From contig JAPFDX010000005.1 of the NCBI GenBank assembly GCA_026168605.1, positions 1 to 64,000 of the forward strand: a DNA stretch of 64,000 nt. Reading direction: 5' to 3'. Made by a program: the position numbers and the translations under genes. The notes beneath the pieces were generated by a model. That model had not been told where the DNA came from, ran no database searches, and saw only the letters and a program-made list of their open reading frames with translations. The stretch's first letter is position 1, and every line of letters begins with the position of its first letter. This DNA comes from Roseburia sp. (lineage in GTDB: Bacteria; Bacillota; Clostridia; Lachnospirales; Lachnospiraceae). Shown in pieces: positions 43,008 to 59,512 of the stretch.

Positions 43008-43013
43008 CACAAG

Positions 43014-43061
43014 GAAGCCGGTAGTTGATATAGGATTTACCTATAACTAACTATCGGCTTC
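43014..43061 (+). terminator. Long stem-loop after the LysR gene
   Basis: GAAGCCGGTAGTT (43014-43026) pairs with AACTATCGGCTTC (43049-43061) with one wobble, and ATAGG (43030-43034) pairs with CCTAT (43040-43044) inside. No long T-run follows. It may terminate the LysR transcript. Because it lies just upstream of the metN -35 and is dyad-symmetric, it could alternatively be the LysR binding site. Confidence 0.55.
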
Positions 43062-43066
43062 TCGTA

Positions 43067-43096
43067 TTAACACATTTTTACTGCGGTTGCTATAAT
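43067..43096 (+). promoter_or_regulatory. Sigma-A promoter for metNIQ
   Basis: TTAACA (43067-43072), 18 bases, TATAAT (43091-43096). The predicted leader is about 345 bases and is filled almost entirely by the repeat element at 43121-43428. No S-box (SAM-I) motif is present. Confidence 0.65.
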
Positions 43097-43120
43097 AACT
43101 ATTGTGAATTTACCGGATAG

Positions 43121-43428
43121 GATTCGGGTGTCAAAAGGGGTTTTTCAAAAGTGGGATTATCAAAATGCACAAATGGTATTCTGATTTGTGAATATGGAGA
43201 AGGTTAGAACTTCTTAATGTTCTCCAGGTTCCAGCAATTCGACGGCAGGGAAGCCGGCGAAAGCCCGAACTGCGCTATGGATGGCGCATAGAGGGCGGTT
43301 GCGTTCCTGCACATGAACGATATTTAAGAACATTTTAGAAGTTCTTAGCTTCGGAATCCTGAACAAAAAGAATATCATTTGTGTGTGTTGCCAGTTGCAA
43401 TTTGAAAACCCCCTTTGACACCCGAATC
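43121..43428 (+). repeat. Structured dispersed element, copy 1 (metN leader)
   Basis: A 308-bp element with terminal inverted arms (GATTCGGGTGTCAAA 43121-43135 against 43414-43428) and a 210-bp core (43171-43380) that recurs at 56516. Nested stems include 43168-43182/43369-43383 and AGAACTTCT (43206-43214)/AGAAGTTCT (43337-43345). The centre carries an A/U-free G/C-rich domain (about 43240-43317) with GCCGGCGAAAGCCCG. A 10-base direct repeat CCGGATAGGA (43113-43122, 43428-43437) overlaps both ends and may be a target duplication. It ends just before the metN ribosome binding site. Confidence 0.8.
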
Positions 43429-43445
43429 CGGATAGGAGAAAACAT

Positions 43446-44504
43446 ATGTCAATGATCGAAGTACGTCATTTATATAAAAGCTTTGAACAGAAGGGCAGCA
43501 CCGTGGAGGCGCTGCGGGACGTCTCGCTTCAGATCGGGGCGGGCGACATTTACGGCATCATCGGAATGTCCGGCGCAGGTAAAAGTACGCTGGTGCGGTG
43601 TCTGAACTTTCTGGAACGCCCGACGGGCGGCGAGGTGCTGATCGAGGGGAAAAGCCTTGCGGATCTGACCGAAAAGCAGCTCCGGGCACAGCGCAGCGAC
43701 ATCGCGATGATTTTTCAGCATTTCAATCTTCTGATGCAGAAAAACGTGATCGACAACATCTGCTTTCCGATGCATATACAGGGGAAAAAGGATGCAAAGG
43801 CGAAGGAAAGAGCCTTAGAGCTCCTGCGTATGGTGGGGCTGGAGGAAAAGGCGACGGCGTACCCGGCGCAGCTATCCGGCGGACAGAAACAGAGGGTAGC
43901 GATCGCGCGGGCGCTCGCGAGCGACCCGAAAATCCTTCTCTGCGATGAGGCGACCAGTGCCCTTGACCCGCAGACGACAGCGTCGATCCTTTCCTTATTA
44001 AAAGACATCAACCGCAGGCTTGGCATCACGATCGTGATCATTACGCATCAGATGTCGGTGATCCGTGAGATCTGCAGCCATGTGGCGATCATAGAGCGGG
44101 GAGAACTTGCGGAGCAGGGACTGGTGGAGGACATCTTTAACCACCCGCGCTCGCGGGCGGCAAGAGAGCTGATCTTAAAGGACCGCCCGGAGGGAAGCTG
44201 GGAAGGAAACCGGAGCGGATGGGACGGAGACGGGCGCCAGGCGGAGCGCATCGCGGGCGGCAGAAAGCTGCGCATCGTCTTTTCGGAGAATTCCGCATTT
44301 GAGCCGGTGATCGCAAATATGGTGTTAAAGTTTGGCACGCCGGTCAATATCCTGCGCGCCGACACAAAGAATGTCGGCGGCTTTGCCAAAGGAGAGATGA
44401 TACTCGGGCTTCCGTCAGACGAGACGCTGGCGGATGAGATGGAGCAGTATCTGAAAGAGAAAGGACTGGAAATCGAGGAGGTGACAGAAGATGTGGACGA
44501 ATGA
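43446..44504 (+). CDS. metN: Methionine ABC transporter ATPase
   Basis: A 352-residue ATPase. Walker A GMSGAGKST is at residues 40-48, then the signature LSGGQKQR, Walker B ILLCDEATSALDP and H-loop ITHQMS. A C-terminal NIL domain (about 275-350) is the methionine-binding, transinhibition module of MetN. AGGAG at 43434-43438 lies right after the repeat element. It overlaps metI by 14 bases. With MetI and MetQ it should import D/L-methionine. Confidence 0.96.
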   Translation: MSMIEVRHLYKSFEQKGSTVEALRDVSLQIGAGDIYGIIGMSGAGKSTLVRCLNFLERPTGGEVLIEGKSLADLTEKQLRAQRSDIAMIFQHFNLLMQKNVIDNICFPMHIQGKKDAKAKERALELLRMVGLEEKATAYPAQLSGGQKQRVAIARALASDPKILLCDEATSALDPQTTASILSLLKDINRRLGITIVIITHQMSVIREICSHVAIIERGELAEQGLVEDIFNHPRSRAARELILKDRPEGSWEGNRSGWDGDGRQAERIAGGRKLRIVFSENSAFEPVIANMVLKFGTPVNILRADTKNVGGFAKGEMILGLPSDETLADEMEQYLKEKGLEIEEVTEDVDE

Positions 44505-56403: not shown

Positions 56404-56469
56404 GTATAAGCACAAGCGCCGGAGGATGCAAGAGTTTTTGTGCGAAGCACACTTTTGATCCGGAAACGG

Positions 56470-56769
56470 TACCGGTGCCAAAAAGATTTTGGAGCATGAG
56501 GCTGGCAGACCGCAGAAATGGTATTCTGATTTGTGAATGTGGAGAATCTTAGAGCTTCTTAATGTTCTGTAAATGTTCAGCAATTCGACGGCAGGGATGC
56601 CGGCGAAAGTCCGAACTGCGTCATGGATGGCGCATAGAGGACGGTTGCGTCCGTAAACGATACCGATCCCGGAACATTTTAGAAGCTCTTGGATTCGGAA
56701 CCCTGAACAAAAAGAATACCATTTCTGCGGTCTGCCATACTCAGATCTGAAAATTTTTTGTCTCCGGTA
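56470..56769 (+). repeat. Structured dispersed element, copy 2 (upstream of secA)
   Basis: A 300-bp element related to 43121-43428. The 209-bp core (56516-56724) aligns along its length, while arms differ. A perfect 24-bp stem pairs 56504-56527 with 56713-56736, and outer pairs TACCGG (56470-56475)/CCGGTA (56764-56769) close it. Inside, AGAGCTTCT (56551-56559) pairs with AGAAGCTCT (56681-56689), and GAATC (56544-56548) with GATTC (56692-56696). Same orientation as copy 1, but here it lies upstream of the secA promoter. The 56358-56941 gap holds no gene. Confidence 0.8.
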
Positions 56770-56816
56770 TCTGAAAAGTTAATAAAAAGTTTACAAATCA
56801 TTTGATGCGGTTGCTG

Positions 56817-56941: not shown

Positions 56942-59512
56942 ATGGGTGCATTAACCAAAATTTTCGGAACTCACAGTGAGCGGGAACTTAAGAGGATCTA
57001 CCCGATCGTCGACAAGGTGGAGTCTTACCGCGACGCTATGGGAGCGCTTTCCGATGAAGAATTGAAGAATAAGACAAAAGAATTTAAGGAGCGTCTGGAC
57101 AAGGGCGAGACGCTGGACGATCTGCTGCCGGAGGCATATGCGACTGTCCGCGAGGCGGCGAGACGTGTGCTCGGTATGGAGCATTACCGCGTACAGATCA
57201 TCGGTGGCGTGATCCTGCATCAGGGACGTATCGCGGAGATGCGTACCGGTGAGGGTAAGACGCTGGTGTCTACCCTTCCGGCATACTTAAATGCGCTGGA
57301 GGGCAAGGGCGTGTGCATCGTCACCGTCAATGATTATCTGGCAAAGCGAGACGCCGAGTGGATGGGGCAGGTACATGAGTTCCTCGGCTTAAAGGTCGGT
57401 GTGGTGTTAAACTCCATGACCAACGACGAGAGAAGAGAGGCGTATAACTGCGATATTACCTATATCACTAACAACGAGCTCGGATTTGATTATCTGCGCG
57501 ACAATATGGTGATCTACAAGGAGCAGCTTGTGCAGCGCGGACTGCATTATGCGATCATCGATGAGGTGGACTCCGTACTGATCGATGAGGCGCGCACACC
57601 GCTGATCATTTCCGGACAGAGCGGCAAATCGACAAAGCTGTACGAGGCGTGCGATATTCTTGCCCGCCAGATGCAGCGCGGTGAGGATATGCCGGAGTAT
57701 TCCAAGATGGACGCCATCATGGGGCTTGAGCAGGAGGAGACGGGGGATTTTATTGTCAATGAGAAGGACAAGGTTGTCACGCTGACGCAGGAGGGTGTGA
57801 AGCGTGTCGAGCAGTTCTTTAAGATCGAGAACCTCGCAGACCCGGAGAATCTGGAGATCCAGCACAACATTATTCTGGCGCTGCGCGCGCATAACCTGAT
57901 GTTCCGCGACCAGGACTACGTCGTGAAGGATGACGAGGTCATGATCGTTGATGAGTTTACCGGACGCATCATGCCGGGACGCCGTTATTCGGACGGTCTG
58001 CATCAGGCGATCGAGGCGAAGGAGCACGTGAAGGTGAAGCGCGAGAGCAAGACCCTTGCGACGATCACCTTCCAGAATTTCTTTAATAAGTTTGAGAAGA
58101 AATCCGGAATGACAGGTACGGCGCTCACGGAGGAAAAAGAGTTCCGCGATATCTACGGCATGGACGTGATCGAGATCCCGACGAACCGTCCGGTAGCGCG
58201 CGTGGATAAGCAGGACGTGGTATATAAGACAAAGAAAGAGAAGTTCCGCGCGGTGGTGGAAGCCGTGCGGGAAGCGCATGAGAAGGGACAGCCGGTTCTG
58301 GTGGGCACGATCACGATCGAGACGTCGGAGACGGTCAGCGCTATGTTAAAGAGGGAGGGGATTCCTCACACCGTACTGAATGCAAAGTTCCATGAGATGG
58401 AGGCGGAGATCGTGGCGGGCGCAGGCGCGCACGGTGCGGTTACGATCGCGACCAACATGGCGGGACGTGGTACGGATATCAAGCTGGACGACGAGGCGAA
58501 GGCAGCAGGAGGTCTTAAGATCATCGGCACGGAACGCCATGAGTCCAGACGTATTGACAATCAGCTCCGCGGCCGTTCCGGACGTCAGGGAGATCCGGGT
58601 GAATCCCAGTTCTTCATTTCCCTGGAGGACGACCTGATGCGTCTGTTTGGTTCGGAGAGACTGATGTCAGCGTTTAATGCACTCGGCGTGCCGGAGAATG
58701 AGCAGATCCAGCACAAGATGCTGACCTCCGCGATTGAGAAGGCGCAGATGAAGATCGAGTCGAACAACTACGGCATCCGAAAGAATCTGCTGGAATACGA
58801 CCAGGTGATGAATGATCAGAGAGAGATCATCTACAAGGAGCGTCTGCGCGTACTCAACGGTGAGAATATGCGCGATGCGATCTTTAAGATGATCACGGAC
58901 CGCGTGGAGAACAGTGTTGACACCTGTATTTCTGCGGATATTCCGAAGGAGGAGTGGGATCTGAACGAGTTAAACCAGCTTTTGATCCCGATCATTCCGA
59001 TGGAGCCGGTGGATGCGGACGACGTTGATGGCGTGAAGAACAACAAGGAGTTAAAGCATCTGTTAAAGGAGCGTGCGGTGAAACTCTATGAGGCGAAGGA
59101 GACGGAGTTCCCGAATCCGGAGCAGTTCCGTGAGTTGGAGCGCGTGGTGCTGTTAAAGGTGATCGACCGCAAGTGGATGGATCACATCGACGATATGGAT
59201 CAGCTTCGCCAGGGGATCGGCTTACAGTCCTACGGACAGAAGGATCCGCTTGTCGAGTACAAGATGGCAGGCTTTGATATGTTTGACGATATGACGGCAA
59301 GTATTCAGGAGGATACCATCCGTCTGCTGTACCATGTCAAGATCGAGCAGAAGGTGGAACGCGAGCAGGTGGCGAAGGTGACCGGAACGAACAAGGATGA
59401 TTCGGCTACTAACGCGCCGAAGCGCCGTGCGGCAGCCAAGGTATATCCGAACGACCCGTGTCCATGCGGCAGCGGCAAGAAATACAAGCAGTGCTGCGGA
59501 AGAACAGTATAA
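56942..59512 (+). CDS. secA: Preprotein translocase ATPase SecA
   Basis: An 856-residue SecA, the motor that pushes preproteins through SecYEG. The start is ATG 56942 ([19 protein letters not shown]) with TAGGAG upstream. DEAD-motor motifs include MRTGEGKT (near 99-106) and the [15 protein letters not shown] Walker B region; later [11 protein letters not shown] and the [13 protein letters not shown] arginine-finger region follow. It ends in a zinc-binding SEC-C motif, [15 protein letters not shown], used for SecB-like or ribosome contacts. Confidence 0.98.

Follow-up and report, generated by a model that had tools for sequence, protein, structure and literature searches.

A TwoAYGGAY RNA core as the very probable cargo of non-autonomous transposable elements in the metN leader and 5' of secA in Roseburia

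Two copies of a structured element occur in the stretch of Roseburia sp. DNA analysed here (the window: 64,000 nucleotides, positions 1 to 64,000 of contig JAPFDX010000005.1, assembly GCA_026168605.1), one in the leader of metN (copy 1) and one 5' of secA (copy 2). Both carry the TwoAYGGAY RNA (Rfam RF01731), and sequence comparison makes it very probable that they are non-autonomous transposable elements (MITEs) with this RNA as cargo. The whole explanation, in which such MITEs would be moved by an IS1182-like mobiliser and would provide CsrA-binding leaders, is one that we hold with moderate confidence.

Results

Both copies belong to the TwoAYGGAY RNA family

G000 designates the genome under study (2.73 Mb), and all other G numbers designate comparison genomes. 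The two copies, their parts and their neighbours are:

43067-43096, plus strand: promoter-like TTAACA-N18-TATAAT 5' of copy 1, found likewise at the empty site of G047
43114-43120, no strand: left copy of the 7-bp target duplication (TSD) of copy 1, CGGATAG (sequence, TSD statistics)
43121-43428, plus strand: copy 1 (W1), complete MITE-like element of 308 bp in the metN leader; the coordinates are the exact element ends
43121-43137, plus strand: left terminal inverted repeat of copy 1, GATTCGGGTGTCAAAAG (end-repeat search)
43193-43359, plus strand: TwoAYGGAY RNA core of copy 1 (96.0 bits)
43238-43261, plus strand: hairpin 1 of copy 1, loop AGGGAA at 43247-43252, C-G closing pair
43271-43288, plus strand: hairpin 2 of copy 1, loop ATGGAT at 43277-43282, T-G closing pair
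43412-43428, minus strand: right terminal inverted repeat of copy 1, one mismatch (end-repeat search)
43429-43435, no strand: right TSD copy of copy 1, CGGATAG (sequence, TSD statistics)
43446-44504, plus strand: metN-like ABC transporter gene 3' of copy 1 (named by eye and in an earlier reading of the window)
56468-56771, plus strand: copy 2 (W2), diverged subfamily-B element 5' of secA; ends set by eye
56537-56703, plus strand: TwoAYGGAY RNA core of copy 2 (113.5 bits)
56584-56607, plus strand: hairpin 1 of copy 2, loop AGGGAT at 56593-56598
56617-56634, plus strand: hairpin 2 of copy 2, loop ATGGAT at 56623-56628
56942-59512, plus strand: secA 3' of copy 2 (identified by eye; 58 of the 60 genus genomes have homologues)

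Both copies were aligned over positions 1-168 of the RF01731 model and scored well above its curated gathering cut-off of 43 bits, with E-values of 1.3e-15 for copy 1 (96.0 bits) and 1.4e-19 for copy 2 (113.5 bits). The earlier, sequence-only reading had been unable to match the element to any named RNA, which was incorrect, and it had itself named an Rfam assignment as the result that would speak against it; RF01731 is such an assignment. The motif AYGGAY that gives the family its name fits loop 2 of both copies, but not loop 1. Therefore, their membership rests on the model score. The RNA family as such is known already, as an orphan. In their treatment of this motif, Gardner and colleagues 2014 (PMC4333381) described its external stem as poorly conserved and predicted, from motif matches, a CsrA-binding sRNA; two additional covarying pairs are given for it in the Rfam 15 paper (PMC11701678). 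We found no description of TwoAYGGAY as a mobile element in the open-access papers searched.

The earlier reading had placed both copies correctly, and its limits for copy 1 coincide with the element ends. The coordinated differences that it listed between the copies could be found again: AGAACTTCT/AGAAGTTCT in copy 1 is replaced by AGAGCTTCT/AGAAGCTCT in copy 2, GAAG/CTTC is replaced by GAATC/GATTC, and copy 2 has a perfect 24-bp arm (TGGCAGACCGCAGAAATGGTATTC and its complement). The change of GCCC/GGGC to GTCC/GGAC is also present, but the left GCCC is located at 43263-43266, one base away from its reported place. The description of the element as two-copy is true within the window, whereas the whole genome contains 39 copies and shortened derivatives.

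The RNA fold of copy 1 has a z-score of -9.8, with none of 100 shuffles as good, although any long inverted repeat folds well. The metN start lies more than 150 nt 3' of the copy 1 hairpins, and the ORF list of the window contains no ORF of at least 80 aa inside either copy. A match to mir-1990 at 43013-43062 was dropped (20.6 bits against a cut-off of 63). This strong, terminator-like hairpin follows the LysR-type gene, is conserved in G047 and is likely a terminator.

Ends, target duplications and an empty site

In each copy the Rfam core is flanked by inverted arms, and unrelated sequence follows beyond them. The commonest end, GATTCGGGTGTCAAAAG, was found at 24 forward and 25 reverse sites in G000 with up to three mismatches, compared to 3 + 3 sites for a reversed-pattern control. 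The ends of copy 2 differ from this consensus by more than three mismatches. Target duplications were sought in 72 copies from five genomes, and both ends were recognisable in 36 of them. Identity between the 7-bp flanks was 0.591, versus 0.348 with the right flanks re-dealt, and 0 of 2000 shuffles were as high, the length of 7 and the register having been picked from 21 combinations. Perfect 7-bp duplications were present in only 7 of the 36 copies, and the inner five bases alone matched in 10. The duplication of copy 1 is perfect (CGGATAG/CGGATAG), and no clear target duplication was found for copy 2.

Among the 60 genus genomes searched, G047 is the nearest (its SecA fragment is 97% identical). 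Its LysR-metN site contains no element and keeps the same promoter and start codon, and thus represents an empty site for copy 1. Copy 2 is also absent at its counterpart site in G047, yet the junction there is not clean. Self-complementary arms outside the core were furthermore observed across the phylum, with a mean self score of 18.9 versus 6.8 for mismatched pairs (28 of the 29 fetched loci). Copy 1 shows four features by which a MITE is recognised, namely terminal inverted repeats, a TSD, no transposase gene inside and an empty site in G047. Copy 2 is counted among the MITEs because it shares core and arms; its ends have diverged.

A candidate mobiliser in related genomes

A search with the IS1182-like transposase described below (E <= 0.001) gave no match in G000 and matches, some of them weak, in 8 of the 60 genus genomes. 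Therefore, the mobiliser was inferred from relatives. G020 contains an intact IS of 1844 bp with perfect 17-bp ends (GATGTTGGGGTCAAAAG), a TSD (TTGGAAT/TTGGAAT) and a transposase of ~540 aa, which matches PF13751 and PF05598 above their cut-offs. Its score against NCBIfam NF033551 (IS1182) is 146.3 bits, below the cut-off of 270, and it is therefore labelled 'IS1182-like'. A second copy of this IS in G045 has an open transposase frame and ends with 0 and 1 mismatch, its right flank being cut by the contig end. One-ended remnants, consisting of a near-identical end next to a disrupted transposase, are found in G034 and G035 (GATTAGGGTGTCAAAAG and GATTGGGGTGTCAAAAG, one base from the G000 end). 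One base separates the A-type ends from the nearest IS-type end, and four of 17 separate them from the intact IS, while the end of the G020 IS resembles subfamily-B ends such as GATGTTGGGGGCAAA in G052. These similarities suggest that the elements are probably mobilised in trans by the DDE transposase of an IS1182-like element with a similar end repeat. A 1.8-kb end-repeat pair in G048 (L287) was rejected, since no gene was called between the repeats.

The long arms behave as DNA, the inner hairpins lean towards RNA

To separate the two levels of covariation, we compared mismatches: a stem kept as RNA should contain more G-U than A-C mismatches, and a stem kept as DNA equal numbers of both, given that an A-C mismatch reads as G-T on the opposite strand. 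The genus set comprised 94 copies from eight genomes, 39 from G000 and 55 from a screen of 98 genomes. Its outer 60-nt arms contained 202 G-U versus 231 A-C mismatches (p = 0.18; by copy, 33 versus 43), and the basal stem of the core contained 46 and 50. For the phylum set of 28 genomes, the corresponding values were 34:36 for the outer arms and 14:5 for the basal stem (p = 0.06). Single genomes departed in both directions (G016 27:11, G052 22:48), and longer arms reaching into the core gave 324:336 overall and 33:9 in G016 alone (p = 0.0003). RNA-type wobble had been expected in subfamily-B arms, but this was not borne out (32:30). With neither mismatch type in excess, the long arms behave like an inverted repeat of DNA, and this speaks against selection for an RNA stem in that part. 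Arm covariation, as reported in the sequence-only reading, is real, but the selection on an RNA fold suggested from it is not supported for the long arms, where most of the listed changes lie. DNA-level correction had rightly been raised there as an alternative, and the interpretation as a whole is partly supported.

The inner hairpins of the 94 genus copies gave 39:15 (p = 0.0015) and differ from the arms at p = 4.6e-4. With identical hairpin stems counted once, the ratio was 26:15 (p = 0.12; versus arms, p = 0.049), and the phylum-set hairpins gave 27:17 with a crude hairpin picker (p = 0.17). The inner hairpins thus lean towards RNA, without proof.

Arms were also compared with their own partner and with the same arm of other copies. 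In G014, G016, G054 and G004, the match to the partner (0.76-0.81) exceeded that to other copies (0.62-0.69). The same was observed for G000 subfamily B and two G047 copies, and both values were equal in G052. The opposite was found for G000 subfamily A (0.79 for other copies' arms versus 0.74 for the partner) and G050 (0.80 versus 0.72), as would be expected of young copies. Among the 9 copies of G014 and 11 of G016, inspection by eye revealed coupled double changes in the pairs L166/L176 and L167/L163 and one-sided changes in L158/L159 and L168/L169. Two of five orthologous pairs (G014_L161/G016_L165 and G014_L167/G016_L163) are inverted in place, with flanks 98.2-98.5% identical. Recombination between the arms could lead to such inversions.

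The inversions, the self-complementary arms beyond the core across the phylum and the missing G-U bias of the arms in both genus and phylum would also suit a pure DNA repeat, the core of which is kept solely as hairpin or cruciform DNA for transposition or replication and has no RNA role. We consider this doubtful in view of the G-U excess of the hairpins before de-duplication, the association with CsrA described below, and the conservation of the loop letters A and GGA against a background of variable stems and variable other loop positions.

Copy number, subfamilies and genomic position

G000 contains 39 TwoAYGGAY copies. Six extra end-repeat sites were read; five are shortened derivatives, down to a bare end-repeat hairpin, and the sixth lies inside a gene. 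In the 98-genome screen, TwoAYGGAY was detected at E <= 0.001 in 25 genomes, 24 of the 60 in the genus (including G000) and 1 of the 38 outside. Scoring in this screen was capped at 25 candidates per genome and used strict filters, so that copy counts, such as at least six in G047, are lower bounds. Searches of plasmid and phage collections gave no match to copy 1. The exact pattern of the G000 subfamily was not found in a named-genome contig collection, from which G000 records were possibly left out, and a pattern built from relatives matched eight contigs, all from uncultured Lachnospiraceae RUG297.

By eye, the G000 copies were split into subfamilies A (n=27) and B (n=12). According to a simple gene caller, the gene following a subfamily-B copy is co-oriented in all 12 cases, whereas subfamily-A copies are followed by 14 sense genes, 12 antisense genes and one by none (12/12 versus 14/26, counting only copies for which a gene was called; p = 0.0065). 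A promoter-like site is located 0-30 nt 5' of 11/12 B copies versus 3/27 A copies (p = 2e-6; the promoters were noticed before the test), and B-type copies of G052 are in sense in only 3/5 cases. For these two reasons, the sense-leader position of B copies is only a lead. By eye, the genes downstream of the G000 copies are unrelated.

Divergent inverted TwoAYGGAY pairs, ~0.2-0.6 kb apart, were seen in G052 (L068-L072), G014/G016 (L073/L077), G050 (L074) and G004 (L075-L076). By eye, the spacers of several G052 pairs are alike and lack genes, and such an inverted pair may move as one unit. The LysR-metN intergenic space is a recurrent target, containing copy 1 in G000 and the divergent pair L075 in G004 (C217). 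Other dispersed repeats (TTTCCTATAAA, CCGCCGCAGTGCGATCCC) were noticed by eye near L006, L015, L022, L026, c21_11663 and c14_11458.

Hairpin loops and CsrA

Both loops have the sequence ANGGAN in 81 of the 94 genus copies, including copies 1 and 2, and GGA in 88. The hairpins are closed by a C-G pair in 89/94 and 82/94 copies, respectively, and the loops are spaced by 29-30 nt in 89/94. The second letter of loop 1 can be any base (G30 T27 A15 C22), so that ANGGAN fits the genus better than AYGGAY. At the phylum loci, for which hairpins were picked crudely, ANGGAN occurs in both loops in 13/28 and GGA in 17/28, and some of the others have a five-base AGGAY loop (by eye). A hairpin with an ANGGAN hexaloop is the binding site described for CsrA/RsmE (PMC7652899; PMC3791407), and a distance of 10 to 63 nt between two sites is spanned by a single dimer (PMC7652899).

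CsrA is encoded in 56 of the 60 genus genomes, and its presence therefore discriminates nothing within the genus; G000 has five PF02599 matches. In the phylum, TwoAYGGAY was detected at E <= 0.001 in 51 of 398 genomes, in 34 above the Rfam cut-off. CsrA is present in 49 of these 51 genomes versus 236 of the 347 others (p = 4e-6, uncorrected for phylogeny). A second look at the remaining two again gave no CsrA above cut-off (G278, 94% complete, with TwoAYGGAY above cut-off; G332, 75% complete). Judging from the motif and its spacing, we predict that CsrA binds the two-hairpin core, and regard the chances for and against this as evenly balanced.

In all six Eubacterium and Roseburia genomes covered by one study, csrA is reported to lie at the flagellar locus (PMC3720852). 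On G000 contig C15, a csrA adjoins a fliW-like gene (by eye), and four extra csrA-like genes encoding 79-96 aa are found on C26, C38, C9 and C47 (L213-L216). By eye, two of these have flagellin genes as neighbours and three have tyrosine-recombinase-like genes, an arrangement suggestive of CsrA paralogues that are linked to flagellin and have a recombination switch.

Given dozens of copies with a pair of ANGGAN hairpins each, the elements could jointly act in trans as a CsrB-like decoy, that is, a CsrA sponge maintained for the host with incidental mobility, in agreement with the prediction in Gardner and colleagues (PMC4333381). But subfamily A is random in orientation and includes decay derivatives, the copy number varies (39 in G000, at least six in G047), and 36 of the 60 genus genomes, the majority of these with a csrA gene, have no TwoAYGGAY match (at most 25 candidates scored per genome). 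Such a sponge is therefore unlikely.

An ordinary cis-regulatory RNA leader, riboswitch-like and conserved 5' of the genes that it controls, would agree with the Rfam type label 'Cis-reg' of RF01731 and with the sense orientation and upstream promoter-like sites of the G000 B copies (12/12 and 11/12), but this reading is largely refuted for copies 1 and 2 and highly improbable, since no TwoAYGGAY above cut-off occurs at the secA loci of 20/20 relatives searched (29 fetched), no relationship among the downstream genes is seen by eye, G047 has an empty LysR-metN site, subfamily A is random in orientation, B-type copies of G052 are in sense in 3/5 cases, and the table of the paper in which the motif was discovered, Weinberg et al. 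2010 (PMC2864571), lists TwoAYGGAY as a probable RNA scored 'cis-reg n, switch n'.

Discussion

The MITE reading suggests how such an element could affect a gene. Insertion between a promoter and a start codon, exemplified by copy 1 at metN, would turn the element into a 5' leader. The transcribed core would then offer two ANGGAN hexaloop hairpins ~30 nt apart, which one CsrA dimer could bridge, and the insertion might place the gene under the influence of CsrA or add a CsrA decoy. The long arms would serve the DNA element rather than the RNA fold. An actual regulatory effect on metN or secA is a tentative prediction that we regard as rather doubtful.

It is also conceivable, though unlikely, that TwoAYGGAY transposons with CsrA-binding RNA as their main cargo seed CsrA sites in unrelated leaders and rewire the CsrA regulon of motile Lachnospiraceae species by species. 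Insertion would occur at TATA-like sites, for some subfamilies just 3' of promoters, and in-place inversion would switch a CsrA site on or off. The leaders seeded in this way here would include those of secA, greA, pcrA, purL and others (names assigned by eye).

Our analysis adds to this RNA family the mobile-element identity, the candidate mobiliser, the in-place inversion and a group of 12 copies all in sense leaders. Since an orphan RNA family labelled cis-regulatory travels as a transposable element in this genus, its places in the genome should not be taken as evidence of conserved regulation. Should CsrA bind the hairpins, transposition would give a global RNA-binding regulator a direct way to gain new targets. 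The pairs G000/G047 and G014/G016 are ready natural comparisons, and the comparison of G-U with A-C mismatches is a simple and general way to tell whether covariation in long inverted repeats arises at the RNA or at the DNA level.

Compared to the Rfam family RF01731, copies 1 and 2 match the covariance model over its full length and have the same two-hairpin core, but their loop 1 reads AGGGAN instead of AYGGAY, and any base is found at its second position across the 94 copies. Relative to the accounts of the family in the publications cited above, the transposon ends and the target duplication are extra features of these copies. With RNAs of the CsrB/RsmY/RsmZ type, TwoAYGGAY shares the GGA hexaloops, the C-G closing pairs and a spacing that a dimer could bridge. 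In contrast to these RNAs, each copy has two sites rather than many, is transposon-borne and in some cases located in an mRNA leader, and its binding is a prediction. The closest resemblance in architecture to mobile DNA is to MITEs of IS1182-like transposons, which likewise have inverted-repeat ends, a 7-bp target duplication, no internal gene, many copies, internal-deletion derivatives and a related full IS in relatives. Unlike those MITEs, the elements described here contain a conserved structured RNA core, which is found far more widely than its end repeat.
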